In this document: positions 22,379-33,811 of the stretch, piece after piece | Position numbering within the stretch: position 1 is the first letter of the stretch | Layout of the letters: the number at the start of each line of letters is the position of its first letter | Virus record (IMG/VR): IMGVR_UViG_3300042914_003288 | Span: 1 to 33,811 of that record | Length of the DNA: 33,811 nt | Direction: 5' to 3' (one strand) | Origin: a virus | Notes under the pieces: generated by a model | Seen by the model: the letters and a program-made list of their open reading frames with translations, nothing else | Told to the model about the DNA's origin: nothing | Databases searched by the model: none | Position numbers and translations under genes: made by a program

Positions 22379-22387
22379 AGGGCCACA

Positions 22388-22576: not shown

Positions 22577-22624
22577 TACTTAATTCTCTTTTAATAACAA
22601 CATAACATAACAATACAACACAAT

Positions 22625-22837: not shown

Positions 22838-22844
22838 TATATAT

Positions 22845-23000: not shown

Positions 23001-23033
23001 AATAATATATATATACCAATTTGTATATATATG

Positions 23034-23150
23034 GTTCAGATTTGAATCAATATAGTTCAGATTTGAATGAATATGATTCAAATTTGAATCAATTTGATTC
23101 CAATTTGCTCAATTATCGCTCAAATTTGTAAATAAATAGTTCAATTAAAT
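23034..23150. repeat. Degenerate tandem repeat, period about 21 bp
   Basis: Six units begin at about 23034, 23055, 23075, 23096, 23118 and 23139. The theme is G(A/T)TCA(A/G)ATTTGAAT with AATAT between. The period is two helical turns. The segment is non-coding and lies between a stop codon and composite element 3. It could be an iteron-like protein-binding array. Confidence 0.6.
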
Positions 23151-23154
23151 AGAA

Positions 23155-23273
23155 AGCAAGAAACGTGCCAATCTGCACTTGGCATGACTCTTGCTATGGG
23201 GCCCCACCTTACGTAAGTCGTTGATACTGAGGGACTTACAAAAAGAGGGGCCCCCCAGCAATGTTCGTGCCAA
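23155..23273. repeat. Composite sigma-54-box/hairpin element 3
   Basis: Left pair: minus box 23155-23171, 7-bp spacer, plus box 23179-23195 (TTGGCATG, ACTC, TTGCT). Hairpin 23198-23254 with GGGGCCCC at both ends and GTAAGTC/GACTTAC inside. Right minus box 23257-23273 (AGCAA, TGTT, CGTGCCAA). The expected last plus box is lost; only CCAGGTGATTTTTT remains where CCAGGCGATTGGCATG is expected. Confidence 0.75.
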
Positions 23274-23322
23274 ACTCAAAAAACCAGGTGATTTTTTCTG
23301 ACGAAAATCTGCACAGAAGTTG

Positions 23323-23351
23323 TTGACGCATCGGCGTCCATCCTGTAGGCT
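23323..23351 (+). promoter_or_regulatory. Cassette promoter P9 (leaderless type)
   Basis: TTGACG, 17-bp spacer, TAGGCT, 9 bp to the ATG at 23361, with the usual CTGCACAGAAG segment upstream. Confidence 0.65.
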
Positions 23352-23360
23352 GTAGCCACA

Positions 23361-23537
23361 ATGAAACACGAAATGCAAATCAAGATCCTCTGGCACGTTC
23401 TCACTCTCAGCAAGCCCGGCTTCCTTTGGAAGTTCGAGTGCGAAGTCTCCGATGAGACGGAGGCTGAAGAAATCGCCCAGTACATCCGCGACACCACCAC
23501 GAACGCCGGAGTGAAGGTTGTCGAAGTTTGGGTGTAA
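23361..23537 (+). CDS. Unknown small protein (58 aa)
   Basis: The 58-aa product begins MKHEMQIKILWHVLTLSKPG and ends with an alpha-beta pattern (EAEEIAQYIRDTTTNAGVKV VEVWV), a typical ferredoxin-like half. The first five codons match those of the 20695 gene exactly, while the rest is unrelated. That is consistent with recombination breakpoints just inside the coding start. Confidence 0.65.
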   Translation: MKHEMQIKILWHVLTLSKPGFLWKFECEVSDETEAEEIAQYIRDTTTNAGVKVVEVWV

Positions 23538-23544
23538 ATACTAG

Positions 23545-23572
23545 TTGACCATTGCTAATCTCTTGCTAATCT
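23545..23572 (+). promoter_or_regulatory. Cassette promoter P10 (leaderless, TAATCT type)
   Basis: TTGACC, 16-bp spacer, TAATCT, then 6 bp to the ATG at 23579, so the transcript should begin at or next to the ATG. Confidence 0.65.
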
Positions 23573-23578
23573 AATCCT

Positions 23579-23956
23579 ATGCGAAAATTACTTGCTATCC
23601 TGCTCGTCTCGTTCTCTGTCTCTGCTGCCGATCTCAACGCCTTTCTCGATGCTGTCGCGAAGGTCGAGAGCAGCAACAATCCGAAGGCCGTCAACAAGAA
23701 AGAAAGCGCTTTCGGCCTATACCAAATCCGCCCCGCGTACTTCAAAGACTCGGGCGTGAAGGCAAAGCATGGCGACGTTTTCAAGCCTGACGTAGCCAAG
23801 AAGGTGGTGCTCGCCTACTTCCAGAAATATGAGCCCACTGCATTGAAAAACCTTGACTTTGAGACTCTCGCTCGTTGTCACAATGGTGGGTGTGGTTGGC
23901 GCAGGAACAAGTCAGCTACCAATGGCTACTGGCAGAAAGTGAAAAAGAATCTTTGA
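23579..23956 (+). CDS. Exported lysozyme/transglycosylase-like protein (125 aa)
   Basis: Residues 1-16 form a signal peptide (MRKLLAILLVSFSVSA) with cleavage likely after SVSA. The mature part has the lytic-transglycosylase-like order: AKVESSNNPKAVN with a candidate catalytic Glu30 in an E-S pair, FGLYQIRP (46-52), and ARCHNGGCGW with the N-G-G turn at 102-104. It is shorter than most soluble lytic transglycosylases (about 105 mature residues). It probably cuts peptidoglycan in the periplasm. Lysis genes usually pair with a holin; the nearby 41-aa membrane peptides are candidates only by proximity. It is GC-rich compared with the structural genes. Confidence 0.8.
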   Translation: MRKLLAILLVSFSVSAADLNAFLDAVAKVESSNNPKAVNKKESAFGLYQIRPAYFKDSGVKAKHGDVFKPDVAKKVVLAYFQKYEPTALKNLDFETLARCHNGGCGWRRNKSATNGYWQKVKKNL

Positions 23957-23980
23957 CACCCACAAAAAATCTGATACCTT
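23953..23980 (+). promoter_or_regulatory. Cassette promoter P11 (leaderless, TACCTT type)
   Basis: TTGACA, 16-bp spacer, TACCTT, 6 bp to the ATG at 23987. The -35 box overlaps the stop codon of the lysozyme-like gene. Confidence 0.65.
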
Positions 23981-23986
23981 TTTCTT

Positions 23987-24196
23987 ATGTCAGACTTAAA
24001 ATTGATTGCAAATCTATTGAATAAATATGGGCGCAATTTCTTTGCTAAGTGTCCCAGATATAAAACGGCAAAATATAAAAATGAATATGTGAGTCTAATC
24101 AGTTTCGATACTAATGATTTGTATTTTTATATAGAGAAGATTGATAAAAGCAGAGATTGTGTGAAAGTTACTGAATTAAATGATTTTGGATTGTAA
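23987..24196 (+). CDS. Unknown small protein (69 aa)
   Basis: The 69-aa product begins MSDLKLIANLLNKYGRNFFA and is basic in its first half (KCPRYKTAKYKNEY) and mixed beta afterwards. I do not recognise it. It has AT-rich codons even though its promoter is of the cassette type. The next gene begins 2 bp after its stop, so the two are probably co-transcribed. Confidence 0.6.
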   Translation: MSDLKLIANLLNKYGRNFFAKCPRYKTAKYKNEYVSLISFDTNDLYFYIEKIDKSRDCVKVTELNDFGL

Positions 24197-24198
24197 AT

Positions 24199-24465
24199 AT
24201 GATTGCAACAATTAAACAAAACAAAATAGGCCATTTGCACGTTTGGTTTGGCGATGTAAATATCATCGAAGTCAGTAAATACAATTATCTTTCTAATGGT
24301 AAAGAAAGTGATTTATATATACAAAACAAAAAAGATATTGAATGTTTTTTAGATGATATAAATAGTGATGACGCCAAAATGATTTGTGATGGTTATACTG
24401 TAAAGACAGAAGTGTTTGATGAATACGCTGAAATGATAAATAAAGCAATTTTCGTGCCAACCTAG
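24199..24465 (+). CDS. Unknown small protein whose C-terminus is encoded by a repeat (88 aa)
   Basis: The 88-aa product begins MIATIKQNKIGHLHVWFGDV. It has a beta-rich N-terminal half and a helical acidic second half. The last seven residues, KAIFVPT, are encoded by the left box pair of composite element 4 (AGCAA, TTTT, CGTGCCAA). The stop codon therefore lies inside the repeat. The element may have landed in the 3' end of a longer gene and supplied a new terminus, or the gene may have always run this far. Confidence 0.6.
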   Translation: MIATIKQNKIGHLHVWFGDVNIIEVSKYNYLSNGKESDLYIQNKKDIECFLDDINSDDAKMICDGYTVKTEVFDEYAEMINKAIFVPT

Positions 24466-24639
24466 ACTTGGCATGGGACTTGCTTGGGGCCCCTCCTTGC
24501 GTAAGTCGTTGATACTGAGGGACTTACAGAAGGTGGGGCCCCGTAGCAACTATAGTGCCAACATGATCTTGGCATGATTTTTGCCCCAGCAATCTTCGTG
24601 CCAACAGTGATTTTCCAGGCGATTGGCATGAAACTTGTT
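24444..24639. repeat. Composite sigma-54-box/hairpin element 4
   Basis: Left pair: minus box 24444-24460, 7-bp spacer, plus box 24468-24484 (TTGGCATG, GGAC, TTGCT). Hairpin 24486-24542, capped by GGGGCCCC at both ends. Right: minus box 24545-24561, 7-bp spacer, plus box 24569-24585 (TTGCC variant), CC, minus box 24588-24604, 18-bp spacer ending CCAGGCGA, plus box 24623-24639 (TTGTT). This is a full-length unit of about 196 bp. Confidence 0.75.
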
Positions 24640-24663
24640 TCTGAAAATATCTGTGCAGAAGTA

Positions 24664-24692
24664 TTGACCAGGAACCAGCCTTCCGATAGGCT
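24664..24692 (+). promoter_or_regulatory. Cassette promoter P12 (leaderless type)
   Basis: TTGACC, 17-bp spacer, TAGGCT, 9 bp to the ATG at 24702. The GGCCACAATGAA end is duplicated 12 bp further on, placing a second in-frame ATG at 24714. Confidence 0.65.
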
Positions 24693-24701
24693 ATAGCCAC
24701 A

Positions 24702-24923
24702 ATGAAGGCCACAATGAATACAAACAACTATCCGTCAGTTACGATCACTTTCTGCGAAACCCAAATCGAAGTTTGGTATCGCGTTTCTCTTTCTAACAAT
24801 GTTTTCATCATGGAGATGAAACCAGTTGATAATGTTTCAATAGAAGATTGGGATTGGATTTGTTCTCGGGCAAAGCATTATGAACAAATCGAAGAGTTGA
24901 TTGCATTTGAAATTAACAATTAA
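24702..24923 (+). CDS. Unknown small protein, paralogue A1 (73 aa)
   Basis: The start at 24702 fits the leaderless spacing. The second ATG at 24714 (MNTNNYPSVTITFCETQIEV) lines up with the start of its paralogue at 25892. The product has four beta strands and then a helix (EDWDWICSRAKHYEQIEELI), and Trp, Tyr and Cys positions are shared between the two copies. Function unknown. It heads an AT-rich trio (24702, 24938, 25149) whose first and last members are duplicated at 25892-26399. Confidence 0.65.
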   Translation: MKATMNTNNYPSVTITFCETQIEVWYRVSLSNNVFIMEMKPVDNVSIEDWDWICSRAKHYEQIEELIAFEINN

Positions 24924-24937
24924 TAATAATAACACAT

Positions 24938-25090
24938 ATGGACAACAATATTGAAATTGGATTGGCGCAGATTGAAGTTGAGGAAGTGATTACTGAAGAT
25001 TCAAATCCGACTTGGCCTGATGACAGCAACAACAACATGGATCAATATCTAAGTTTGGAAGCGGCAACTGAAATCATGTTTCCTTTCTAA
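24938..25090 (+). CDS. Unknown acidic small protein (50 aa)
   Basis: This ORF has the same A-rich leader (AATAACACATATG) as its neighbours. The 50-aa product begins MDNNIEIGLAQIEVEEVITE and is strongly acidic, ending MFPF. There is no counterpart in the second copy of the block. The stop codon overlaps the start codon of a hydrophobic micropeptide ORF (TAATG). Confidence 0.55.
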   Translation: MDNNIEIGLAQIEVEEVITEDSNPTWPDDSNNNMDQYLSLEAATEIMFPF

Positions 25091-25152
25091 TGTACATTTT
25101 ACTAATCATCTGCATTGTCATTGTACTAATAAATAAAACAAACAACATATGA
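25090..25152 (+). CDS. Hydrophobic micropeptide 1 (20 aa)
   Basis: The ORF reads MYILLIICIVIVLINKTNNI. Its start overlaps the previous stop (TAATG) and its stop overlaps the next start (ATGA). The peptide is a single hydrophobic segment of about 14 residues followed by a polar/basic tail. It lies at the same place as the ORF at 26117 in the duplicated block. It belongs to a set of similar ORFs at 27480, 29373, 29448 and 32503. Confidence 0.5.
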   Translation: MYILLIICIVIVLINKTNNI

Positions 25153-25373
25153 GTGAACATAAATACGCTTTTAACTATGTAATCGATCCGCGCAAATTGA
25201 TTAGTTTGCACGTTGCGGTTGAACTTCTAATTGTCAGGCTGGAAGAGCAGATTAAGAAAGAAGAATTGAGTAATGAGTCTTACTTTTCTAAATATAAACA
25301 AGAATTGGAGCAATTACTAATTGATACTGACTATTCCAATTTGAAATATGCTAATACGACAAATGTAAACTAA
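25149..25373 (+). CDS. Unknown helical protein, paralogue B1 (74 aa)
   Basis: The 74-aa product begins MSEHKYAFNYVIDPRKLISL. It has a first short beta part and then a long charged helical hairpin (VRLEEQIKKEELSN, KYKQELEQLLIDTDYSNL). It is about half identical to the protein at 26178. Leader AACAAACAACATATG, without Shine-Dalgarno. It ends 8 bp before composite element 5. Confidence 0.65.
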   Translation: MSEHKYAFNYVIDPRKLISLHVAVELLIVRLEEQIKKEELSNESYFSKYKQELEQLLIDTDYSNLKYANTTNVN

Positions 25374-25380
25374 TAACCTG

Positions 25381-25594
25381 AGCAGGAACCGTGCCAACTG
25401 AGGGTTGGCATGGAACTTGCTGTGGGGCCCCACCTTGCGTAAGTCCTTGATACTGAGGGACTTACAGAAGCGGGGGTCCCCAAAAAAATCAAGAGGTTTT
25501 TTTCGGTATTTTCCAGGTACTTGGCATGACTTCTGCTCCCCCAGCAATCTTCGTGCCAACAGCGATTGTCCAGGCGATTGGCATGAAACTTGTT
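25381..25594. repeat. Composite sigma-54-box/hairpin element 5
   Basis: Left pair: minus box 25381-25397 (AGCAG variant), 7-bp spacer, plus box 25405-25421 (TTGGCATG, GAAC, TTGCT). Hairpin 25424-25481, ending GGGGTCCCC. An A7/T7 segment 25482-25503 follows. Then plus box 25521-25537 (CTGCT), CCCCC, minus box 25543-25559, an 18-bp spacer and plus box 25578-25594 (TTGTT). The pair that normally flanks the hairpin on the right has lost its minus box here. Confidence 0.75.
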
Positions 25595-25619
25595 TCCTGA
25601 AAAATCTGTCTGGAAGATG

Positions 25620-25648
25620 TTGACGGATCGGCGTCCATCATGTAGGCT
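25620..25648 (+). promoter_or_regulatory. Cassette promoter P13 (leaderless type)
   Basis: TTGACG, 17-bp spacer, TAGGCT, 9 bp to the ATG at 25658. Confidence 0.65.
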
Positions 25649-25657
25649 ATAGCCACA

Positions 25658-25867
25658 ATGAAGGACGACATGAGTACAGAACACATCAGAGTTACAGACT
25701 ACGAAATCGACGACGACGGCGCACTATACGTCACCGAGGCGTTCGACAGCAACGCCAACCGTCTTCTGAACTGGAACGAGATTCGTGATCTCAATGCCAA
25801 TGTTGAGTTTATGGAAAACTTCAGCGAACAGCGCGTCGCATTTTACGACGAAGAATACAACGCCTAA
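25658..25867 (+). CDS. Unknown acidic small protein (69 aa)
   Basis: The 69-aa product begins MKDDMSTEHIRVTDYEIDDD and is strongly acidic throughout, with an Asn/Glu-rich second half and a DEEYNA end. GC-rich codons. An alternative start at the second Met (STEHIRV) is possible, but the promoter spacing supports the first. I do not recognise it. The A-rich leader of the next gene starts right after its stop. Confidence 0.65.
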   Translation: MKDDMSTEHIRVTDYEIDDDGALYVTEAFDSNANRLLNWNEIRDLNANVEFMENFSEQRVAFYDEEYNA

Positions 25868-25891
25868 CAATTAACAATAACAACACACACA

Positions 25892-26110
25892 ATGAATAGA
25901 AATAACTATCCTTCAGTAATAATAACTTTCTGCGAAACTGAGCTTCAAGTTTGGTATCGCGTTTCTCTCTCCAAGGGCATTTGCATCATGGATATGGAAG
26001 CTCTTGACAAGAACATCTCCAAAGAAGATTGGAATTGGATTTGTTCTGAAATCAAACATCATGAACAGATCGAACAAATAGTGGCTGATATTGTTAATAA
26101 CGAATACTAA
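25892..26110 (+). CDS. Unknown small protein, paralogue A2 (72 aa)
   Basis: This paralogue of the 24702 gene begins MNRNNYPSVIITFCETELQV and shares about 60 percent of residues by eye, including VWYRVSLS, EDWxWIC and HEQIEQ. It has a 24-bp A/C-rich leader (AACAATAACAACACACACA) and no cassette promoter directly upstream, so it is likely read from P13 with the 25658 gene. Confidence 0.65.
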   Translation: MNRNNYPSVIITFCETELQVWYRVSLSKGICIMDMEALDKNISKEDWNWICSEIKHHEQIEQIVADIVNNEY

Positions 26111-26116
26111 TACAAT

Positions 26117-26170
26117 ATAAAATTTTTAATTATCCTTTTGCTTCTTGCTTTTTTAATTCATACTAAATAA
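26117..26170 (+). pseudogene. Hydrophobic micropeptide 2, ATA in place of a start codon (17 codons)
   Basis: At the position corresponding to micropeptide 1, between paralogues A2 and B2, an open frame reads (I)KFLIILLLLAFLIHTK. The leader ACAAT is followed by ATA where ATG is expected. Either it is a recently dead copy, or ATA is used as a rare start. Confidence 0.35.
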
Positions 26171-26177
26171 ACAACAT

Positions 26178-26399
26178 ATGAGCGAACATAAACATTACTA
26201 TAAATATATAATCAATCCTCCCGAGTTGGTTGCTTTGCACGTTGCGGCTGAAATGTTAATTTCTAAACTTGATCAGCAAATAAAAGATCAAGAATTGGAT
26301 AATAATTCTTTTGCTTCTAAATATAAATCAGAATTGCAACAATTGCTAAACAAGACTCACTATTGCAATTTGGAACGCATCAATGCAAATGTAGATTAA
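26178..26399 (+). CDS. Unknown helical protein, paralogue B2 (73 aa)
   Basis: This paralogue of the 25149 gene begins MSEHKHYYKYIINPPELVAL, with the same beta start and charged helical hairpin (KLDQQIKDQELDNNSFASKY). Leader AAATAAACAACATATG. It ends 7 bp before composite element 6, as B1 ends 7 bp before element 5, so the gene and the element were duplicated together. Confidence 0.65.
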   Translation: MSEHKHYYKYIINPPELVALHVAAEMLISKLDQQIKDQELDNNSFASKYKSELQQLLNKTHYCNLERINANVD

Positions 26400-26406
26400 T
26401 AAACTG

Positions 26407-26583
26407 AGCAAGACCCGTGCCAACCTGGACTTGGCACGAAACTTGCTGTGGGGCCCCTCCTTGTGTAAGTCGTTGATAATCAAGGACTTACAAAAAGGGG
26501 GGCCCCAAAAAAATCAAGAAATTTTTTTCGGTATTTTCCAGGCGCTTGGCACGGCTTCTGCTCCCCAGCAAGAGTCATGCCAA
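26407..26583. repeat. Composite sigma-54-box/hairpin element 6
   Basis: Left pair: minus box 26407-26423 (AGCAA, GACC, CGTGCCAA), 7-bp spacer, plus box 26431-26447 (TTGGCACG, AAAC, TTGCT), both exact sigma-54 consensus. Hairpin 26450-26506, GGGGCCCC at both ends, inner stem GTAAGTC/GACTTAC. A7/T7 segment 26507-26528. Then plus box 26546-26562 (CTGCT), CCCC and minus box 26567-26583. Confidence 0.8.
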
Positions 26584-26613
26584 CATCACAAAAAAGAAAA
26601 ATGCAAAAAAAGC

Positions 26614-26641
26614 TTGTTGCCTCCCTTGTCAAGCCTAAGAT
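26614..26641 (+). promoter_or_regulatory. Cassette promoter P14 (leaderless, TAAGAT type)
   Basis: TTGTTG, 16-bp spacer, TAAGAT, 6 bp to the ATG at 26648. Confidence 0.5.
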
Positions 26642-26647
26642 ACTCGC

Positions 26648-26833
26648 ATGATTCATAACTGGATTCCCCGCAGCCTTCGATGGTCTGCTGACGAACGAAA
26701 ACAGAAAGAAACGCAAGCTCGAAACGCTCGCGAAAACGCAAGGAAAATCTGGCTGGAAAAGGAAAAAACCAGGCAGCAAATTGAGCGCGAAATCTTGCAA
26801 AAAGTCCTTGCACGTCGGGCGCTCCTCGACTAG
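26648..26833 (+). CDS. Basic helical protein (61 aa)
   Basis: The 61-aa product begins MIHNWIPRSLRWSADERKQK and is then one long charged helix rich in Arg, Lys, Glu and Ala (ARNARENARKIWLEKEKTRQ, QIEREILQKVLARRALLD). It has no Cys. It looks like a coiled-coil or nucleic-acid-associated peptide, but a fold cannot be assigned. The leaderless promoter supports the start. The next gene begins 12 bp later. Confidence 0.55.
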   Translation: MIHNWIPRSLRWSADERKQKETQARNARENARKIWLEKEKTRQQIEREILQKVLARRALLD

Positions 26834-26845
26834 TCTCTTCTCAAC

Positions 26846-27475
26846 ATGAAACTTGCACAAGCGATTGAATACGTGGGCGGATTTTCCGCTCCCTCAAAAA
26901 TGCCCTGTCATGGGTTCAGCATCCCGGCGCGGTATTGCAAAACGGGGCAGAAGCTCCGTGAAGTTGCTGGTAGCATCTGCTCTAAGTGCTACGCTCTGAA
27001 GGGACGATACGGTTTCCCGAACGTGCAGAACGCGCTCGAAAGGCGCTTCGCCAACCTGAAAAACGATCTGTGGGTTCAGGCCATGACGATTGCGATCCGG
27101 GGAACCGAGTCAAGCGGTTTCTTCAGGTGGCATGATTCCGGCGACATCCAAGATGTCGCGCATCTTGACAAAATCGTGCAGGTTGCTCGCAACCTGCCGG
27201 AAATCAAGTTCTGGCTGCCGACTCGGGAGTACGGTGTCGTTTCGGAATGGGTCAAGGCAAATGGTGCGTTGCCTGAAAATCTGACGATCAGGCTTTCGGC
27301 TCTGATGTTGGAAGGTCAACCTCCGGTTGGAATCGCCAACCGATTGGGTTTGACAACCTCGGGAGTTTCAAAGACGGGTTTCACTTGTCCGTCTTCGGCT
27401 CAGGGGAACAAGTGCCTGACTTGTCGGGCCTGTTGGGACAAGTCCGTCCAAAACGTCAACTACAAAACTCACTGA
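26846..27475 (+). CDS. GP88-like phage protein with cysteine clusters (209 aa)
   Basis: The 209-aa product resembles the mycobacteriophage Gp88-type family found in many phages. It has an N-terminal KMPCHGFSIPARYC, then SICSKCYALKGRYGFPNVQ, the signature FFRWHDSGDIQDVAHL near residue 92, and FWLPTREYGVV. A C-terminal Cys cluster reads CPSSAQGNKCLTCRACWDK. The eight or so Cys residues could bind a metal or an iron-sulfur cluster. Family function is unknown. GC-rich codons, unlike the structural genes. Micropeptide 3 starts 4 bp after its stop. Confidence 0.75.
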   Translation: MKLAQAIEYVGGFSAPSKMPCHGFSIPARYCKTGQKLREVAGSICSKCYALKGRYGFPNVQNALERRFANLKNDLWVQAMTIAIRGTESSGFFRWHDSGDIQDVAHLDKIVQVARNLPEIKFWLPTREYGVVSEWVKANGALPENLTIRLSALMLEGQPPVGIANRLGLTTSGVSKTGFTCPSSAQGNKCLTCRACWDKSVQNVNYKTH

Positions 27476-27479
27476 AAAA

Positions 27480-27539
27480 ATGTTGTTTCTGGTCTTGACG
27501 GTGGCGTTGCTTCTGGTAATCTGTTCTCAACAAAAATGA
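27480..27539 (+). CDS. Hydrophobic micropeptide 3 (19 aa)
   Basis: The ORF reads MLFLVLTVALLLVICSQQK. It starts 4 bp after the GP88-like stop and its TGA overlaps the next ATG (ATGA). It is a 15-residue hydrophobic run with a polar end. Its DNA also contains promoter P15, so peptide and promoter share the same bases. The ALLLVIC stretch closely resembles ALLLIIC in the micropeptide at 32503. Confidence 0.5.
   Translation: MLFLVLTVALLLVICSQQK
27495..27522 (+). promoter_or_regulatory. Promoter P15 (short leader)
   Basis: TTGACG, 16-bp spacer, TAATCT, 13 bp to the ATG at 27536. It lies wholly inside micropeptide 3. Confidence 0.55.
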
Positions 27540-27721
27540 AATACGAATTGATTGTTGAAACCGAAGCCTGCACGTCTTTCTTTACTTTCCCGCACAATCG
27601 CGAAGGTTCAACGGCAGCTTTTGAAAAACTTGGATCCTTCATCACAAAGGATGAGTTTAGATCCGCAAAAATCGTGAGCAATCGCGACAATGTGATTTTC
27701 GAGTTTCCTTCTAAAAACTAA
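27536..27721 (+). CDS. Unknown small protein (61 aa)
   Basis: The 61-aa product begins MKYELIVETEACTSFFTFPH and ends with beta strands (SAKIVSNRDNVIFEFPSKN). The alternating strand-helix-strand pattern could be a small alpha/beta domain. It shares an ATGA overlap with micropeptide 3 upstream. I do not recognise it. Confidence 0.65.
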   Translation: MKYELIVETEACTSFFTFPHNREGSTAAFEKLGSFITKDEFRSAKIVSNRDNVIFEFPSKN

Positions 27722-27735
27722 ACAAACAACATATC

Positions 27736-27981
27736 ATGCACACAATTAAAAAGTACATTGCACCGTTTGAAGTTATCAATTATACTCGCGAAGACGGCAA
27801 TCAAGCTGTATATAAAGTTTTCCGTCTTTCAAAGCATCTTTTTCGTAATAAAAAGAAAGACGAAAATAGAATTGTCGGTTTCAAAGCCTGGAAATTGGCA
27901 AATACCGGCGCAAATCAAAAAGCAGGTTGGCGCAGTTTTCGATTTGATCGAATTAATGAAATTGAGCTTGCTTTCTTTTAA
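27736..27981 (+). CDS. Unknown basic protein (81 aa)
   Basis: The 81-aa product begins MHTIKKYIAPFEVINYTRED and is basic and beta-rich, with a LAN-containing GFKAWKLANTGANQK stretch. Leader AACAAACAACATATC before the ATG is of the A-rich type. A second ATG-initiated frame overlaps it at 27758, but this frame has the usual leader and better residue composition. A structured RNA candidate follows. Confidence 0.6.
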   Translation: MHTIKKYIAPFEVINYTREDGNQAVYKVFRLSKHLFRNKKKDENRIVGFKAWKLANTGANQKAGWRSFRFDRINEIELAFF

Positions 27982-28007
27982 TATAATTTTGTTGGAAAAA
28001 AGACGAT

Positions 28008-28083
28008 AAAGCAATGGCATGGTGTGCAAGGAGATCTTGCAACGGGATTGTGTTATGGCCTATTGAAACACCATTGCTTTTTT
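28008..28083 (+). ncRNA. Structured RNA candidate ending in a terminator
   Basis: A stem AAAGCAATGG (28008-28017) pairs with CCATTGCTTT (28071-28080) and is followed by U residues, so the RNA ends like a rho-independent terminator. An inner hairpin TGCAAG/CTTGCA (28025-28040) has a GAGAT loop and displays AAGGAG. A TATAAT at 27982-27987 could start it. The same bases also encode a 23-codon ORF from 28014 (MAWCARRSCNG). RNA and peptide are alternatives. Confidence 0.45.
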
Positions 28084-28126
28084 AATTAAAAAAAATTAAA
28101 ATAAATTAATAAATAAAAATAGCGCG

Positions 28127-28257
28127 AGCAATTTTCATGCCAACCGGCACTTGGCACGGCAATTGCTGTGGGGCCCCACCTTTTGTAAGTCGTTGATATT
28201 CAAGGACTTACGCAAGGAGGGGCCCCATGCGTAAACCCTTGATAATCAAGGGGTTAC
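28127..28257. repeat. Composite sigma-54-box/hairpin element 7
   Basis: Left pair: minus box 28127-28143 (AGCAA, TTTT, CATGCCAA), 7-bp spacer, plus box 28151-28167 (TTGGCACG, GCAA, TTGCT, exact consensus). Hairpin 28170-28226, capped by GGGGCCCC at both ends. A second hairpin (28231-28257) GTAAACCC...GGGTTAC follows instead of the right box pairs. Confidence 0.75.
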
Positions 28258-28370
28258 AAAAGCTAAAACTCCAGGTTAACGGTAACTATCGAACTATTTA
28301 TCTATTTATATATCACTATTTAGCTATTTGTATTTAACTATTTAGCGATCACTATTTAAGTATTTAAATA
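28258..28370. repeat. AT-rich gap with CTATTTA repeats
   Basis: No gene is seen. From about 28287 the motif CTATTTA(G/T) recurs at least six times at 8-14-bp spacing, including TCACTATTTAG and CGATCACTATTTAAG. A related copy (CGCTCACTATTTAG) lies near 32777. Confidence 0.5.
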
Positions 28371-28398
28371 AAAAACCCTCAATTTTTTAGATTGAGGG
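28370..28398 (-). terminator. Rho-independent terminator of the small minus-strand operon
   Basis: The stem CCCTCAAT/ATTGAGGG has a 7-bp loop. On the minus strand it is followed by a U run. It lies 11 bp past the stop at 28410. Confidence 0.85.
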
Positions 28399-28409
28399 CG
28401 ATTGTTTAT

Positions 28410-28607
28410 TTATTTAACTGGATTTTTTGTATAACTTACATCAATTACTTCTTCAATTATAGTAAAGCTATCTTTTTCAGCATCAAAATCATCATTATGA
28501 ACTAACCAATTATGAATATCAATAGGATCTAATTTAACATCAGATTTGAAATGATACCCAATAGTTGGGCCGTTGCGATATTCAACAATAGCAATTTGTT
28601 TGTTCAT
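28410..28607 (-). CDS. Unknown small protein (65 aa)
   Basis: A longer frame extends to 28673 but overlaps the upstream gene by 65 bp. The ATG at 28607 gives MNKQIAIVEYRNGPTIGYHF and is preceded by CTAATATG, close to the common leader type. The product is acidic, with DPIDIHNWLVHNDDFD in the middle. It ends just before a strong terminator. I do not recognise it. Confidence 0.6.
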   Translation of the reverse strand: MNKQIAIVEYRNGPTIGYHFKSDVKLDPIDIHNWLVHNDDFDAEKDSFTIIEEVIDVSYTKNPVK

Positions 28608-28608
28608 A

Positions 28609-28863
28609 TTAGTAGAAGAAGATGCGCGACTCGTCAGGAAAGGTAACAGGAAGAGTGTCGCGGTCAACACCAAATGTGGTTCCAGGCGTCACATCAGACT
28701 TGGACAAATATCCAAATCCTTTGTAATTACCCGTCTGCATGAGAAGATCTCCCACGAAATACTGTAGAGCTATTCGCTGATCCGCAAAGTCATTCTTGCT
28801 GTTCTGGAAGAATCGGTTTGCTTGTTCTCTGATGTTCTCAACTGGAATGGTTTTTCGTTTCAT
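28609..28863 (-). CDS. Unknown small protein (84 aa)
   Basis: The 84-aa product begins MKRKTIPVENIREQANRFFQ, has an N-terminal basic helical part (FADQRIALQYFVGDLLMQ) and a C-terminal beta part ending RIFFY. GC content is higher than in its neighbours. Its start overlaps the stop of the upstream gene by 4 bp, so it is probably co-translated. Not recognised. Confidence 0.6.
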   Translation of the reverse strand: MKRKTIPVENIREQANRFFQNSKNDFADQRIALQYFVGDLLMQTGNYKGFGYLSKSDVTPGTTFGVDRDTLPVTFPDESRIFFY

Positions 28864-29138
28864 ACAAATAATTTTTTACCTTGTACCGTCAACGCTGAGA
28901 CTGAATCTACTGGAACACCGCGCCTTGTAAAGGATTTTTTATTGGAATCGTACTCTAAAACGCCCCCATAAAATCCTACAGGAGACTTGACAGTCCAACC
29001 GACAACGTATCCGTTGTTCAGCGTGACTTGCGTGAGGTGGAGCGAACCAACTTTTTTGTCTTTTTTCCACTTGCCACCTTCTTCAACTTCGACTTGGTGG
29101 TTGTCTTCTTCTTGGTAGCGGAAACGGATTTTTTGCAT
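28860..29138 (-). CDS. Unknown protein (92 aa), overprinted by the upstream gene
   Basis: The frame is open to 29261, but the ATG at 29138 gives MQKIRFRYQEEDNHQVEVEE, a sensible acidic/basic mix, and a beta-rich product (GSLHLTQVTLNNGYVVGWTV) ending VQGKKLFV. The gene at 29018-29380 overlaps its first 121 bases in another frame. Both frames remain open and have plausible composition, so a long out-of-frame overlap is likely real. Confidence 0.6.
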   Translation of the reverse strand: MQKIRFRYQEEDNHQVEVEEGGKWKKDKKVGSLHLTQVTLNNGYVVGWTVKSPVGFYGGVLEYDSNKKSFTRRGVPVDSVSALTVQGKKLFV

Positions 29139-29380
29139 AGATTTTTTGTTTGATTTTCTTCTTGCTTTTTCTTTTTGGCAAACTCGCCGTAGTGATATGC
29201 TCGACCGCGAAGTCCTAGCTTTTGCTGATCTTCTGTGATGAAGCCACGACGAATCTCCCACTTTTTAAAAGCGTCGTCAATCATTTTATATGTGCCATCT
29301 GGAAGGTCTAAAGAATAGATGCCATCCATGCTGACATCATATCTGTTTGTAATACGCGATTTAAATTGACTATCACTCAT
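29018..29380 (-). CDS. Protein with Lys-rich tail, overlapping the next gene (120 aa)
   Basis: The ATG at 29380 gives MSDSQFKSRITNRYDVSMDG. The first 70 residues are globular (ending GLRGRAYHYGEF). The last 40 are almost entirely Lys, Thr and Ser (KKKTTTKSKLKKVASGKKTK). The tail is encoded where the downstream gene overlaps in another frame. The longer start at 29416 would add residues encoded inside the micropeptide ORF. The tail may bind nucleic acid or may reflect overprinting. Confidence 0.6.
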   Translation of the reverse strand: MSDSQFKSRITNRYDVSMDGIYSLDLPDGTYKMIDDAFKKWEIRRGFITEDQQKLGLRGRAYHYGEFAKKKKQEENQTKNLCKKSVSATKKKTTTKSKLKKVASGKKTKKLVRSTSRKSR

Positions 29381-29444
29381 TGTATGTAAATCCCTTGTAG
29401 AAAAAATAAATACCAATACAAATTAATAAACAAAGCAAAAACAT
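29373..29444 (-). CDS. Hydrophobic micropeptide 4 (23 aa)
   Basis: The ORF begins MFLLCLLICIGIYFFYKGFT and ends YNE. It follows micropeptide 5 by 3 bp, and its stop overlaps the start region of the 29380 gene. One transmembrane-length segment is followed by a polar tail. Confidence 0.5.
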   Translation of the reverse strand: MFLLCLLICIGIYFFYKGFTYNE

Positions 29445-29447
29445 TAT

Positions 29448-29513
29448 CTACTTATTCTTTTGTTGATAGATTGTGATTAATAATGCGCAAACAATAATAA
29501 ACAATAAATACAT
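29448..29513 (-). CDS. Hydrophobic micropeptide 5 (21 aa)
   Basis: The ORF begins MYLLFIIVCALLITIYQQKN and ends K. A 16-residue hydrophobic run is followed by a basic tail. It lies 3 bp before the start of the 29707 gene's downstream stop (29516) and is followed by micropeptide 4, so two such ORFs stand in tandem. Confidence 0.5.
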   Translation of the reverse strand: MYLLFIIVCALLITIYQQKNK

Positions 29514-29515
29514 AA

Positions 29516-29707
29516 TTAAACAGGAGGAAGAACTTGCTCAAACTCTATTGCGCGTCCACTCAGATCACGAATGAGTTCACGGGACACAGTATCAAGAGTC
29601 TTGCGCCCAGTCAACTGAATAAATATGGCTTCCTGCGCTTTGTCGATGAACTTCTCGCGGGGAACACCATAGATGTGCTGAACATAGTACTTAATTTTAG
29701 TCTGCAT
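29516..29707 (-). CDS. Unknown small protein (63 aa)
   Basis: The 63-aa product begins MQTKIKYYVQHIYGVPREKF and is mostly helical (AQEAIFIQLTGRKTLDTVSR). An AAGGA lies 8 bp before the ATG, one of few Shine-Dalgarno-like sites here. Its start overlaps the end of a 38-aa basic ORF. Not recognised. Confidence 0.6.
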   Translation of the reverse strand: MQTKIKYYVQHIYGVPREKFIDKAQEAIFIQLTGRKTLDTVSRELIRDLSGRAIEFEQVLPPV

Positions 29708-29813
29708 TTTTATTCCTTTTGTATTGTTTTTTACTTGGTATTGTTTTTGTTGGAGGCGGAAGAGGCTTTCTAATTTTCTTAAATATCTCAGATTGTGATG
29801 GCAACTTTTTCAT
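29697..29813 (-). CDS. Possible small basic peptide (38 aa)
   Basis: A short ORF from 29813 reads MKKLPSQSEIFKKIRKPLPP and continues PTKTIPSKKQYKRNKNAD. It overlaps the end of the SprT-like gene by 26 bp and the start of the 29707 gene by 11 bp, in the pattern of coupled phage genes. It is highly basic with a Pro-rich centre. Support is positional only. Confidence 0.4.
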   Translation of the reverse strand: MKKLPSQSEIFKKIRKPLPPPTKTIPSKKQYKRNKNAD

Positions 29814-30294
29814 TTAATTTATCCCAAATAATGTATTGCTTACAATACTTGCAATAGTAATTTCTTTTACCAGATTGAATTGCGTTATGCTTGTATGTAG
29901 TTAGATAAATCTTTTTATCGCACTTGCAAGAATAAACATGATCTGTTTTTACTTCAAAGTCGTGGCAACGAGTTGCCGATTGGCCGATAACTTGCATAAC
30001 TTTCTTCCATTCGGCACCATGTGAAGAAATGAACATACCATAAACTTGTCGCGAAATTAAATGTGCAGCTTCGTGACCCGGAGTATCATCAATAAATGCT
30101 TGTCCATTCTGAATTAAAAGAACATTGTTCAATCGAATTAGATTATGATGGTAATAAGCAACACCAGCACGGCGACCGCCCAAATTAAACTCAACAGTAG
30201 GAAATGGAAACTTTGCATTATAAACTGATTCGCAAATTGAATATACGTTTTGTATTCTAACTAAGCAAGCGTTTTGTAATTCAGTTACATTCAT
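29788..30294 (-). CDS. SprT-like zinc metallopeptidase (168 aa)
   Basis: A longer frame reaches 30393, but the ATG at 30294 lies exactly 7 bp downstream of a TACTTT -10 box, so the leaderless start is chosen. The product has a beta-rich N-terminal half (FNLGGRRAGVAYYHHNLIRL), the zinc-binding HEAAH at 74-78 and SSHGAEWKKVM with a third His at 92. It ends in a zinc ribbon (CKC at 123-125, CKYC at 148-151). SprT/Spartan-type enzymes cut DNA-bound proteins. This is a plausible phage role in removing host proteins from DNA, but inferred. Confidence 0.85.
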   Translation of the reverse strand: MNVTELQNACLVRIQNVYSICESVYNAKFPFPTVEFNLGGRRAGVAYYHHNLIRLNNVLLIQNGQAFIDDTPGHEAAHLISRQVYGMFISSHGAEWKKVMQVIGQSATRCHDFEVKTDHVYSCKCDKKIYLTTYKHNAIQSGKRNYYCKYCKQYIIWDKLNEKVAITI

Positions 30295-30301
30295 CGCAAT
30301 C

Positions 30302-30330
30302 AAAGTATCACCTTGTACTGCAAGGCACAA
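30302..30330 (-). promoter_or_regulatory. Leaderless-type promoter P16 of the SprT-like gene
   Basis: On the minus strand TTGTGC, 17-bp spacer, TACTTT, then 7 bp to the ATG at 30294. It is the same geometry as the plus-strand cassette promoters. Confidence 0.5.
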
Positions 30331-30368
30331 GGGATTTTTGTCGCCTGAACAACTTTTTTTTGAGGCAC

Positions 30369-30608
30369 TTGGCACGAAACTTGTTGTTGACAACCTGGAG
30401 TTTCTTCAGAGAGAAACCAACGTAAGTCGTTGTCTTTCAACGACTTGCGTTGGGGCCCCTCTTTGCGTAAGTCGTTGATATTCAAGGACTTACAAAAGGT
30501 GGGGCCCCAAAAAAATCAAGAGATTTTTTTTGGTATTCTCCAGGTAGTTGGCACGGTTTATGCTCCCAGCAATGGGAATGCCAAATCATAGTTGGCATGA
30601 AAATTGAT
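30369..30608. repeat. Composite sigma-54-box/hairpin element 8
   Basis: Left plus box 30369-30385 (TTGTT). An extra hairpin CCAACGTAAGTCGTTG/CAACGACTTGCGTTGG (30417-30453) is joined to the standard hairpin (30452-30508, GGGGCCCC at both ends). A7/T7 segment 30509-30530. Then plus box 30548-30564 (ATGCT), minus box 30568-30584 and a degenerate plus box from 30592 with a 1-bp spacing change. Confidence 0.65.
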
Positions 30609-30732
30609 TTCTTGACCAGGATTTTTTTTGGTGAAGCAAAAATATCTGAGAAAAGTTGTTGTAGCCGCATAGGAAATCGTACACACTGTACCCGCAGTTC
30701 GATTCAACAACTAACCAAAAGGAAAACACAGT

Positions 30733-31764
30733 ATGCCAGCAAACATTGAAAATCGTGACGTTCAGGCCGGACTTGAGATGGCTTGGCACGGTATGACCAA
30801 GATCGTTCCCGTCATCAACTTCGCTGACGCCTTTCCATTTGAAATTGAAAAGCGTCAACTGGTTGACAGCGAGGACGGCACCCCAATCGAAGGAGAGTAT
30901 TACTTTCGCAGCACTGACGACAAGAAGAAGATCGGCAAGACCCTTCCTGATTCTTATGTCGCAATCTCAAACGCTCGTTTTTGGGAAATCGTGCAGAACG
31001 CGGTTGGTGGCACTGGCGCCGTCATCGAATCCGCTGGAACGGTTTTCGACCGTTGCCGCCGATTCGTGACTGTCAAACTCCAGACCGATCTTGATACGTT
31101 CAAGGTGGGTGATCGTGAGTTCAAGAATCGATTCTCCCTGCTGGACAGCATCGACCAGAGCACGAATCTGTACGGCGTGAACAGCAGCACCTGCGTCGTC
31201 TGCTCGAATACCTTCGCGATGGCGATGGGCGACAGGTCCGGCGAGTTCCGTTTCAAGCTGCGGCACTCGAAGAATCTTGTGCCCAAGATCGAGAACATGG
31301 AGAAGGCCATCGATCAGTTCATCGGTGTCACCGCCCAGTTCCAGCAGGCGATGAAGATCGCGAATGAGATCCCGGTCAAGCTGGATCAGGCTCGTCCGCT
31401 CTTTGCTGGTTGGATCGCTGAAGAGACCAATGGGCTATCCACTCGTTCATTCAACACTGTCGGGCGTTTGACCGAGTTGTTCACTCGGGGTGCTGGAAAT
31501 CGCGGCGAGACCCTGCTCGACGCTTTCAGCGCGGTGACTGACTTCTATTCGCACGAATCGAGCGGCGGTCAGGATCAACCGGGGTTCCGAATGAAGCAGA
31601 CCATCTCCAGCGACTTTGGCGCAGCGTCCAAGCGAAAGCAGGACTTCTTCGGCCAGATCTTCGACGTGGATAAGGAAGTGACGTTCAATCGGGATCGGTT
31701 CACCAATCTGGTCAGCAACGGTCGCAACCTCATCAGCGCGATGGAAGCGGTTACCGCGAACTGA
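30733..31764 (+). CDS. DUF932 family phage/plasmid-like protein (343 aa)
   Basis: The 343-aa product begins MPANIENRDVQAGLEMAWHG, whose AWHG..K.V segment is the hallmark N-terminus of DUF932 proteins. Later features include YVAISNARFWEIVQNA, STNLYGVNSSTCVVCSNTF and FRLRHSKN-like FRFKLRHSKN. DUF932 proteins are common in phages, plasmids and large accessory regions. Their role is unknown; links with DNA-binding or recombination have been suggested. This is the only plus gene with a clear AAGGA 10 bp before the ATG and has high GC content. A strong terminator follows. Confidence 0.85.
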   Translation: MPANIENRDVQAGLEMAWHGMTKIVPVINFADAFPFEIEKRQLVDSEDGTPIEGEYYFRSTDDKKKIGKTLPDSYVAISNARFWEIVQNAVGGTGAVIESAGTVFDRCRRFVTVKLQTDLDTFKVGDREFKNRFSLLDSIDQSTNLYGVNSSTCVVCSNTFAMAMGDRSGEFRFKLRHSKNLVPKIENMEKAIDQFIGVTAQFQQAMKIANEIPVKLDQARPLFAGWIAEETNGLSTRSFNTVGRLTELFTRGAGNRGETLLDAFSAVTDFYSHESSGGQDQPGFRMKQTISSDFGAASKRKQDFFGQIFDVDKEVTFNRDRFTNLVSNGRNLISAMEAVTAN

Positions 31765-31778
31765 ACCAGTCAAGCAAG

Positions 31779-31807
31779 AATCCTCCCGCAAGGGAGGATT
31801 TTTTTTT
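31779..31807 (+). terminator. Rho-independent terminator of the DUF932 gene
   Basis: The stem AATCCTCCC/GGGAGGATT has a GCAA tetraloop and nine T residues, beginning 15 bp after the stop codon. Confidence 0.9.
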
Positions 31808-31811
31808 GCGG

Positions 31812-31981
31812 TTGGCACGTCTTTTACGCTTGACAACCTGGAGATGCTCCTGGGAAAACCCAACGTAAGTCGTTGTCTTCCAACGAGTTACGTTGGGGCC
31901 CCTCCTTACGTAAGTCGTTGATATTCAAGGACTTACAAAAGGTGGGGCCCCATCGTAAGTCCTTGATAATCAAGGGTTTAC
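31812..31981. repeat. Composite hairpin element 9 (boxes degenerate)
   Basis: A TTGGCACG half-box (31812-31819) has no correctly spaced TTGCT. Three hairpins follow in tandem: CCCAACGTAAGTCGTTG/CAACGAGTTACGTTGGG (31859-31897), the standard GGGGCCCC hairpin (31895-31951) and GTAAGTCCTTGA/TCAAGGGTTTAC (31955-31981). There is no right box pair. Confidence 0.65.
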
Positions 31982-32192
31982 AAAAGCACTTTTTCAATTT
32001 TATCGATAAAGTGACATTATAAGTCAAACTACTTTTTAATATATATATAGTTTATATTTATACTTATTTAATACTTATTTGTTTATTTATTACTAGCTTA
32101 TATAGTTATATTTGTATATATGTTATTTGACTATGTATTATTTGCCTATATATAGATCAGTTATTTGGAAAAAAATCATTCAGCTATAAAAG
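31982..32192. other. AT-rich gap
   Basis: I see no gene. The segment is rich in TATTTA, TTATTTG and TATATA words with irregular spacing (for example TTATTTGACTATG and TATTTGCCTATAT). It separates the end of the hairpin block from the convergent minus-strand terminator. Confidence 0.5.
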
Positions 32193-32225
32193 AAAAAACC
32201 TACCAGGTTTTACCCTGATAGGTTT
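32193..32225 (-). terminator. Rho-independent terminator after the 32250 gene
   Basis: The stem AACCTAcCAGG/CCTGaTAGGTT has one mismatch. On the minus strand a U run follows. It lies 25 bp past the stop at 32250. Confidence 0.75.
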
Positions 32226-32249
32226 CACACACGGTTTTTAGTTGATTAT

Positions 32250-32471
32250 TTATCGACGAGGCTTACGATATTCAATACGTCCAGAACGAGCGAATACAAT
32301 ATTATCTGTATTTACAGTTCTATTTGCCTCGGCATTAACATCATAAAAGCGAACACTCTTATTTGTTGCATTCATGATTCGCGCACAATATGTGCTATTT
32401 GTCTTGCCCTTGTTCACCACTAGCGTTGTAAAACGGCCAGCTGTCCTATTTAGTGTTTCAGATAGTGTCAT
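32250..32471 (-). CDS. Unknown basic small protein (73 aa)
   Basis: A longer frame reaches 32525, but the promoter TTGACA/TATAGT lies inside it, so the ATG at 32471 (MTLSETLNRTAGRFTTLVVN) is the likely start. The product is basic, with RTAGRF and a C-terminal RSGRIEYRKPRR. Two beta hairpins are suggested. Not recognised. It is followed by a terminator, so it is a one-gene transcript. Confidence 0.65.
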   Translation of the reverse strand: MTLSETLNRTAGRFTTLVVNKGKTNSTYCARIMNATNKSVRFYDVNAEANRTVNTDNIVFARSGRIEYRKPRR

Positions 32472-32484
32472 ATTTGACGCGCTT

Positions 32485-32513
32485 ACTATATAGGATATTT
32501 GACTATTTGTCAA
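32485..32513 (-). promoter_or_regulatory. Strong consensus promoter P17
   Basis: On the minus strand TTGACA, 17-bp spacer, TATAGT, then 13 bp to the ATG at 32471. Confidence 0.7.
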
Positions 32514-32571
32514 CATGTTTTTCACATATTATCAACAATAGCGCAATAATCATTATCAATATTATATACAT
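32503..32571 (-). CDS. Hydrophobic micropeptide 6 (22 aa)
   Basis: The ORF begins MYIILIMIIALLLIICEKHV and ends DK. A 16-residue hydrophobic run is followed by a charged tail. Its last codons contain the TTGACA of promoter P17 and overlap the promoter of the next gene, as micropeptide 3 does with P15. Confidence 0.5.
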   Translation of the reverse strand: MYIILIMIIALLLIICEKHVDK

Positions 32572-32783
32572 GTATTATATATAGTGTTTATTCTATTTAT
32601 TCCGCATATGCTAACACCATTCAGCCATCATGTCAAGCGCCCGACCTGGCGGCTGTATTATTTTCTATTCTGTTTTTATTTATATTAAATACAAAAAATA
32701 CCAATATATATGTTTTATATTATATATATGGTATACTATATTCTAGCTATTATATATACTCTTATTTGTTATTTAATCGCTCA
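32572..32783. other. AT-rich gap with short GC-richer centre
   Basis: No gene is recognised. The centre (32600-32655) is richer in GC (AGCCATCATGTCAAGCGC, then ACCTGGCGG) inside AT-rich flanks with TATATA runs. Confidence 0.4.
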
Positions 32784-32918
32784 CTATTTAGTATTTGTAG
32801 CAGTAAATAGATAATAAAAAGCATATCCAATAATAAATAAACCAATTCCAACTGGCGCGAGCATTAAACCAATTAATAAAATAAAAGTAAAAATGCCCAT
32901 ATGATATATTGATTCCAT
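32784..32918 (-). CDS. Small two-segment membrane protein (44 aa)
   Basis: The ORF from 32918 reads MESIYHMGIFTFILLIGLML then APVGIGLFIIGYAFYYLF and a short polar tail. Two hydrophobic segments are joined by a Pro-Val-Gly turn, giving a hairpin membrane protein. An inner start at 32900 is possible. It resembles the micropeptides in composition but is twice as long. No promoter was picked out. Confidence 0.5.
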   Translation of the reverse strand: MESIYHMGIFTFILLIGLMLAPVGIGLFIIGYAFYYLFTATNTK

Positions 32919-32942
32919 ATATATTTGTATATTTAAAAGTAG

Positions 32943-33266
32943 TTATTTAGCCTTTTTTCGTTCAGCTTTGTCTTTATTTGCGGCGGCCTCATTTATCATT
33001 CTATCTAATCTTTTATATGCATCTTGTTTAGTTAGACAAGTGTAACCGTGCAGCCCCCAACTATTATTAGATGGATAAAATTCACTCGGCGCTATTTTAT
33101 TACCAGCTATTATTATTCCATTATGAGATTGTATTCTAATAGCCTCATAATGTTTCTTATTTATATTATTACTATAACATCTTTCATATATAGCATACAT
33201 ATCTTCTCTATGTATTTGCTTATATTTGAACCCGGCGCTTTCAAATTCTTTATCTAGTTTTTTCAT
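32943..33266 (-). CDS. Unknown protein (107 aa)
   Basis: The 107-aa product begins MKKLDKEFESAGFKYKQIHR. It has a mixed alpha/beta body (EAIRIQSHNGIIIAGNKIAP) and a highly charged C-terminal helix (NEAAANKDKAERKKAK). It contains a WGLHGYTCLTKQDAYKRL segment, the kind of small domain seen in phage hypothetical proteins, but I cannot name a family. A promoter is placed 29 bp upstream. Confidence 0.65.
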   Translation of the reverse strand: MKKLDKEFESAGFKYKQIHREDMYAIYERCYSNNINKKHYEAIRIQSHNGIIIAGNKIAPSEFYPSNNSWGLHGYTCLTKQDAYKRLDRMINEAAANKDKAERKKAK

Positions 33267-33368
33267 ATATATATCTTATATATAGTATATATATACAATA
33301 ATACAAAATACCCCTAATGTCAACAAAACAAACCAAAAACAATTAAAACCAAACAAAAACAAACAAAA
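33267..33368. promoter_or_regulatory. Leader with promoter P18 and an A/C-rich tract
   Basis: On the minus strand TTGACA (33318-33323), 17-bp spacer, TATTGT (33295-33300) lies upstream of the gene at 33266. The remaining bases form AACAAA-type repeats. Confidence 0.45.
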
Positions 33369-33638
33369 TCAATTGTTTCGATTTATATCATTCATATCTT
33401 CTTTTTCTAGCTGCATTTCGGCAGTAGCAAGCAAAGTTTGCTTGATACCAAGCGCCACACCATTCACATAATTAAAATAAGAAATCAATACCAAATTTAT
33501 TAAAAAAGCCCAATAAATAAAGGTATTTGGATGTATATGAGCACTATACAATATATACAAACATACAAAGAAATGAAACAATACACCATATTTATGTATA
33601 TAGTAATTAAAATTATTATTTAGTTTATTATTTAACAT
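33369..33638 (-). CDS. Small membrane protein (89 aa)
   Basis: The 89-aa product begins MLNNKLNNNFNYYIHKYGVL. Two hydrophobic segments are visible, FHFFVCLYILYSAHI and YWAFLINLVLISYF, joined by a short polar loop (HPNTFI). The C-terminal third is hydrophilic (TLLATAEMQLEKEDMNDI). That suggests a two-pass inner-membrane protein with its tail in the cytoplasm. Not recognised. AT-rich leader without Shine-Dalgarno. Confidence 0.6.
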   Translation of the reverse strand: MLNNKLNNNFNYYIHKYGVLFHFFVCLYILYSAHIHPNTFIYWAFLINLVLISYFNYVNGVALGIKQTLLATAEMQLEKEDMNDINRNN

Positions 33639-33811
33639 ATTATTTATAAAGCAGAAGCTCGCAGATACGTTTTTATCTGTATACCTATATTTCCTATCTT
33701 ATTATCTATATATTCTATATTATTATACTATATATATTTAACCTATAATAAGGAAGAATAAAGACATATTTGGAAAAATGTACAAAAACATACAAAAACA
33801 AGGGGTTTTTG
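33639..33811. other. AT-rich end of window
   Basis: No convincing gene. A 17-codon hydrophobic frame on the minus strand (33738-33791, MFLYIFPNMSLFFLIIG) lacks the basic tail of the micropeptide set and is not called. TATATA and CTATA words dominate. Confidence 0.4.

Follow-up and report, generated by a model that had tools for sequence, protein, structure and literature searches.

Putative Single-Pass Membrane Micropeptides Encoded behind Gene Stops in a Phage Record and Their Linkage to the GP88 Family

Micropeptide Genes of the Window

The 33.8-kb virus record IMGVR_UViG_3300042914_003288 (the window, positions 1–33,811, on which all coordinates below are given unless a contig is named) carries very short hydrophobic open reading frames (ORFs) at gene junctions. 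Sequence comparison suggests that those at 25090, 27480, 29448 and 29373 probably encode single-pass membrane micropeptides that are under selection, are packed into operons and may act as partners of the product of the gene upstream, with 27480 belonging to a group linked to the phage gene family GP88. An earlier note had listed six such reading frames on both strands; all six were present at those positions, including the ATA start of 26117. The six ORFs and the GP88 gene are as follows:

25090–25152 (+), micropeptide gene MYILLIICIVIVLINKTNNI; its start overlaps the preceding stop (TAATG) and its stop overlaps the next start (ATGA)
26117–26170 (+), paralogue of 25090, IKFLIILLLLAFLIHTK; ATA start without ATG, in a duplicated module
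26846–27475 (+), GP88-family gene (PF17338; Pfam E 6.6e-30), linked to micropeptide 27480
27480–27539 (+), micropeptide gene MLFLVLTVALLLVICSQQK; 4 nt past the GP88 stop, its own stop overlapping the next start (ATGA)
29448–29513 (−), micropeptide gene MYLLFIIVCALLITIYQQKNK; 2 nt past the stop of ORF 29516–29707
29373–29444 (−), micropeptide gene MFLLCLLICIGIYFFYKGFTYNE; 3 nt past 29448 and overlapping the next start (ATGAGTGA)
32503–32571 (−), ORF MYIILIMIIALLLIICEKHVDK, possibly coding; frame open in a close relative, end overlapping a promoter-like site

The peptides of 25090, 27480, 29448 and 29373 (19–23 residues) have the same layout: one or two residues at the N-terminus, then a single hydrophobic helix, and last a short tail that is polar and usually basic. 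The 14-residue mean hydropathy of the window peptides was 2.9–3.8, which gives one predicted helix long enough to span a membrane. The peptide genes begin on or just past the stop of the preceding gene. They had been described as lying directly upstream of another gene, but for five of the six the more apt description is a place behind a gene or another micropeptide, with starts −1 to +6 nt from its stop; no gene directly precedes 32503.

Hydrophobic ORFs arise readily in AT-rich intergenic DNA (PMC11188072), and the shuffles were therefore designed to keep composition. ATG ORFs of 15–26 amino acids with a 14-residue mean hydropathy above 2.5 were counted in region 24500–33811 and in 100 dinucleotide shuffles of it in local 300-nt blocks. 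Seven ORFs qualified, against a shuffled mean of 0.57 and a maximum of 2, so that the earlier claim that six such ORFs exceed chance held in the shuffle check proposed for it. Two of the seven (30138 and 27711) lay out of frame within longer ORFs and are probably by-products. Directly behind gene stops, 26 hydrophobic micro-ORFs were observed against 0.58 in shuffled DNA, while micro-ORFs of any hydropathy in that place were at chance level (67 vs 70).

Selection on the frames was assessed with relative L003 (IMGVR_UViG_3300035670_000322, 49 kb), which is syntenic and about 91% identical in DNA across most of 22.4–33.8 kb. The frames of 25090, 27480, 29448, 29373 and 32503 were all open in L003, and none of the five had a frame-breaking indel. 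Between the two records, 25090 had two silent changes and one V to L replacement, 27480 one silent change and 29373 one change. In the 29448 frame four changes were silent and five were not, the five being mostly I/V, T/A or in the tail; the helix stayed hydrophobic, and the ratio of non-silent to silent change (pN/pS) was 0.30 for this frame taken alone. Pooling these four with four GP88-linked pairs gave 20 silent and 10 non-silent changes where 23% silent were expected (binomial P 5.6e-7), and the changes fell 8/1/21 on the first, second and third codon positions. Selection at the amino-acid level was thus found for the four frames and their GP88-linked relatives. The five frames passed the indel check that had been proposed for them, but 32503 showed no clear amino-acid selection. 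The reading of the ORFs as membrane peptides rather than chance frames accordingly stood for 25090, 27480, 29448 and 29373, on the shuffles, the silent-change excess and syntenic counterparts, and does not extend to 32503 and 26117. On this sequence evidence, we regard it as highly likely that these four are genuine coding phage genes.

The syntenic counterparts of 29373 and 27480 came from the strongly diverged relative L004 (IMGVR_UViG_3300021962_000411, 31 kb), whose common genes are 62–73% identical in protein with little DNA similarity. Sixty bases separate the L004 homologue of ORF 29516–29707 from the ORF in place of 29018–29383, and MSLLFLCVVFVLFIILFTNQNE fills this gap; its start is on the first gene's TAATG and its end is in the ATGAGTGA overlap, as with 29373. 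The counterpart of 27480 in L004 is MLFYITIALLVLFIVIFSVKEE, which is found behind the GP88 homologue. The gene after MLFYITIALLVLFIVIFSVKEE is not the homologue of 27536, which is located elsewhere in L004; in L004/L016 the peptide keeps its place behind GP88 and the downstream gene is a different one. The peptide therefore stays with GP88 and not with the following gene.

Linkage of Micropeptides to GP88

ORF 26846–27475 scored 105.1 bits against PF17338, whose curated cut-off is 24.4. Three GP88 query sequences retrieved 80 viral loci, and a genome collection yielded one contig binned as a Bacteroidales metagenome-assembled genome. Among the 54 loci less than 90% identical to one another, a hydrophobic ATG micro-ORF of 15–36 amino acids within 48 nt of the GP88 stop was present in 14, where the 200 shuffles gave 0.055 on average and never more than 1. 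On the same contigs, such an ORF followed GP88 in 14 of 59 rows and other genes in 10 of 1323 (Fisher 1.9e-14); these rows were de-duplicated by identical C-termini only, so that relatedness inflates this contrast somewhat and the 14 of 54 is the stricter test. The peptides are typically 18–25 amino acids long with a single helix and start at or a few bases past the GP88 stop, as in MLILLLVVLLLTIIIEGNKSDTR (L018), MIIAILVIVLVIGIITENNKRK (L021), MEILIVFLIAILATLVRSR (L050), MLIVIFAILVILALTTQKKSL (L026) and MILFITVLIVLFGVAKEVKKNI (L101). Close pairs differed mostly at third positions, with silent and non-silent changes of 5 and 0 (L050/L051), 5 and 1 (L019/L020), and 3 and 1 (L018/L025), respectively. 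From these counts, the linkage between GP88 and the micropeptides is very likely real.

On the GP88 tree, presence of the micropeptide requires at least four changes, and it was therefore gained or lost more than once. Directly behind GP88 in a neighbouring branch (L063, L064, L065 and L087) lies a protein of 49–60 amino acids with two hydrophobic stretches, and thus again a small membrane protein in that place. Three of these proteins start with MNT[RQ]KHTL..IR; in L061 the same start sequence comes after an inserted ORF of 73 amino acids. The cultured phages Caulobacter Seuss, Pelagibacter HTVC033P and HTVC027P and Acinetobacter AM24, together with an uncultured Manatee Spring phage, had ordinary ORFs and no micropeptide after GP88, and the record of Roseobacter CRP-125 ends just behind GP88. 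Before GP88, the window contains an ORF of 61 amino acids (26648–26833, +) that is conserved in L015, L016 and L017 at 49–93%.

A readthrough or frameshift tail of GP88 was rejected as the source of these ORFs, as the offsets (−1, +1, +2, +3, +5 and others) span all three frames. No GP88–peptide fusion was found in 46 GP88 proteins. What follows the peptide varies. In L049 and L053, a terminator-like hairpin and not a gene lies directly past it. L050 and L051 look like L049 and L053 there, by eye only; the terminator scan was negative in L050, where a bulged stem before T6 is visible but fails the ungapped rule, and in L024, for which no terminator is claimed.

Relationships and Status of ORFs 26117 and 32503

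The earlier idea of one scattered family did not survive comparison, as similarity between groups reflected composition only. Duplication of a module made 25090 and 26117 paralogues, and 27480 falls in the GP88-linked group. Kinship of 27480 and 32503 had been proposed from the shared words ALLLVIC and ALLLIIC, and was rejected because the L003 frame of 32503 reads AFLLVIH and the word is not kept.

The duplicated module occupies 24702–25373 and 25892–26399, each copy having in order the ORF of the 24702/25892 pair, the peptide and the ORF of the 25149/26178 pair; within this module 26117 corresponds to 25090. The preceding ORF ends in frame with 26117 (TAA TAC AAT ATA). L003 has one clear orthologous module copy, with other small genes replacing the second, and no orthologous copy of 26117. 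Lacking an ATG and lying in frame with the preceding stop, 26117 is therefore either a relic or a gene with a rare start. PADLOC gave a single weak partial match, an orphan methyltransferase profile for ORF 25149 (E 0.0066), which was not taken as real.

ORF 32503 differed from L003 by three silent and nine non-silent changes (pN/pS 0.69), which is near neutral. Its last codons coincide with TTGACA-17-TATAGT at 32513–32485, which with 11 of 12 matches ranks first among the promoter-like sites of the region, and another such site precedes 32503. A search of viral_contigs for relatives of the genes next to 25090 and 32503 found none apart from L003. An ORF of 44 amino acids at 32784–32918 (−) has two hydrophobic stretches, keeps its frame in L003 (pN/pS 0.11 over the first 38 codons) and probably is another small membrane protein gene.

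Proposed Role of the Micropeptides

In bacteria, a start that lies on or closely past a stop codon and has no clear ribosome-binding site is as a rule reached by reinitiation. The peptides would be made through termination–reinitiation from the preceding gene, and hence in step with it. Tails carried a net charge of +1 to +3 in 14 of 20 peptides and the N-terminal flanks were nearly uncharged. By the positive-inside rule, basic tails with uncharged N-termini point to an N-out, C-in insertion; the peptide would sit in the membrane with its tail in the cytoplasm. There it would be a small membrane partner of the product of the preceding gene, and in the case of GP88 would tether or tune that protein at the membrane. 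We put forward this partner function tentatively, with somewhat less than even confidence.

Several observations weigh against selected membrane partners of upstream products. Each peptide has few substitutions, so that the coding test draws its strength from the pooled data, and 25090 and 29448 have one orthologous comparison each. Of the 54 GP88 loci, 40 have no ATG micro-ORF of this type. Peptides of different branches are nearly unrelated in sequence (mean z 0.37, little above composition), so that the GP88-linked peptides need not all share one ancestor and may have been recruited repeatedly. GP88 itself lacks a membrane segment in all 46 proteins.

The peptides may instead be toxin- or holin-like and act alone, depolarizing the host membrane or blocking a superinfecting phage, with the position behind GP88 serving only for timing. 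We consider this possible but rather unlikely. In size and hydrophobicity they match IbsC (19 amino acids) and ShoB (26 amino acids), which depolarize membranes (PMC8309996), their sequence drifts while hydrophobicity is kept, as in lipid-acting peptides, and similar peptides also occur behind genes other than GP88. Yet the strong preference for GP88 would be left unexplained and no lysis genes were recognized beside the peptides. Type I toxins moreover require an RNA antitoxin, and no Rfam family matched the window, although a new antisense RNA would escape such a search. No toxin family matched above its cut-off, the best being Hol_Tox (PF16935, E 0.14) for the L021 peptide, with profiles being weak at 20 amino acids.

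A more specific version of the partnership would make GP88 an iron–sulphur, radical S-adenosylmethionine (SAM)-like enzyme in a two-part system with the micropeptide, which would anchor GP88 at the host membrane or be modified by it. The AlphaFold2 model of GP88 was confident (mean pLDDT 94). Foldseek with this model returned nothing under E 0.001, and the best VIA-align rows were radical-SAM enzymes, among them TYW1 (Z 6.3) and a viperin-like one (Z 6.0), mixed with other barrel proteins and below the trusted level. Seven cysteines were invariant across 45 GP88 sequences. Given the weak fold matches and the seven cysteines, a radical-SAM-like GP88 is a lead and not a result. The basis of the two-part system is thin, namely those cysteines, untrusted fold matches (Z at most 6.3) and the strong gene linkage, and we think it improbable. 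If true, an anchored or peptide-modifying GP88 pair would represent a two-component phage module of a new kind.

Translation of the small ORF might also regulate the next gene or feed ribosomes to it, the peptide itself being irrelevant. The overlaps at 25090 and 27480 (ATGA) and at 29373 (ATGAGTGA) fit such coupling. Against it stand the different gene past the 27480 counterpart in L004, the terminators past the peptide in L049 and L053, and the selection on amino acids seen as a silent-change excess; hydrophobicity is also unnecessary for coupling, yet the enrichment was restricted to hydrophobic micro-ORFs. Leader peptides that couple translation, as the earlier note had suggested, are thus discounted for the 27480 group, whose downstream gene changes (L004/L016) or is replaced by a terminator, and as a general explanation they are highly improbable. 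At 25090 (whose downstream position was compared in L003 only) and 29373, where the stop overlaps the start of the following gene, the frame may have a coupling role besides coding. Chance ORFs of AT-rich DNA with its T-rich hydrophobic codons could account at most for the near-neutral 32503 and the ATG-less 26117, and are hardly credible in view of the shuffles, the silent-change excess and the syntenic counterparts in diverged phages, of which the first two already contradict chance for 25090, 27480, 29448 and 29373 as a set.

Comparison with Known Microproteins

The intergenic ORFs of 15–70 codons in the enterobacterial Entero67K set are mostly hydrophobic and under purifying selection, and of the members that run in the direction of the upstream gene, about 13% begin no more than 10 nt from its stop (PMC11188072). 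Phages have been predicted to carry thousands of small genes (Fremin et al. 2022, as cited in PMC11364881). The window peptides resemble such bacterial and phage microproteins in being short, hydrophobic, intergenic, selected and close behind stops, but differ in that one group recurs behind a single phage family, GP88, across diverged phages. With the type I toxins IbsC and ShoB of E. coli they have in common a size of 19–26 amino acids and one hydrophobic helix (PMC8309996), but they lie in phage operons behind another gene, with no antitoxin RNA recognized by Rfam and no family match. MgtR, a regulatory membrane microprotein of 30 amino acids acting on MgtA (PMC11188072), offers the same working model of a single-helix peptide modulating a larger protein; no sequence relation to it is shown, and the partner proposed here is a predicted soluble phage protein.

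No family of Pfam, NCBIfam or PHROGs covers the peptides. The 29448 peptide matched the first 21 positions of DUF5993 (PF19455, about 50 amino acids; E 0.0026), and membership was rejected, since the match scored 18.3 bits, short of the cut-off of 27, and the remaining family length is absent. Small phage membrane proteins are thus a known kind, and the GP88-linked group appears to be unlabelled in the libraries searched.

Other Elements in the Window and Its Relatives

The left part of the window contains long ORFs of the head-gene type, one of which matches phage terminases (tblastn); from about 20 kb onward there are small ORFs with repeated intergenic cassettes between them. Seven to nine cassette copies of 60–245 nt lie in 20449–31996, with inverted repeats GGGGCCCC / CGTAAGTCGTTGATA..AAGGACTTAC, and are common to L003; eight copies carry a promoter-like TTGTTGACGGATCGGCGTCC..TGTAGGCTATAGCCACAATGAA element. 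Positions 15758–15841 (84 nt) match LR756501/LR756503, uncultured phage records of 735 kb, at 83% identity, and 23019–23144 is an AT-rich tandem repeat with a 21-nt unit.

Two further micropeptide groups were seen. One, YLIPA[IV]VLI[ST]LAIYLSE, occurs on two contigs (L025:5497–5589 and L015:7578–7504). The other has 33–35 amino acids with the motif F-D-[KR]-[LI]-[FI]-N before the helix and lies mostly directly behind gene stops; its members are as follows:

L004:4647–4546 (−)
L017:5644–5736
L018:7741–7643
L021:5887–5789
L025:9834–9736

Implications

Genes as short as these are below the size that annotation usually admits, and a hydrophobic ORF in AT-rich DNA is generally written off as noise. 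Position behind one phage gene family is a handle independent of sequence similarity and offers a route to further micropeptides by gene position. The linkage hints that GP88, which is common in environmental phages, may work at the membrane or close to it; GP88 and the membrane peptide form a testable pair.

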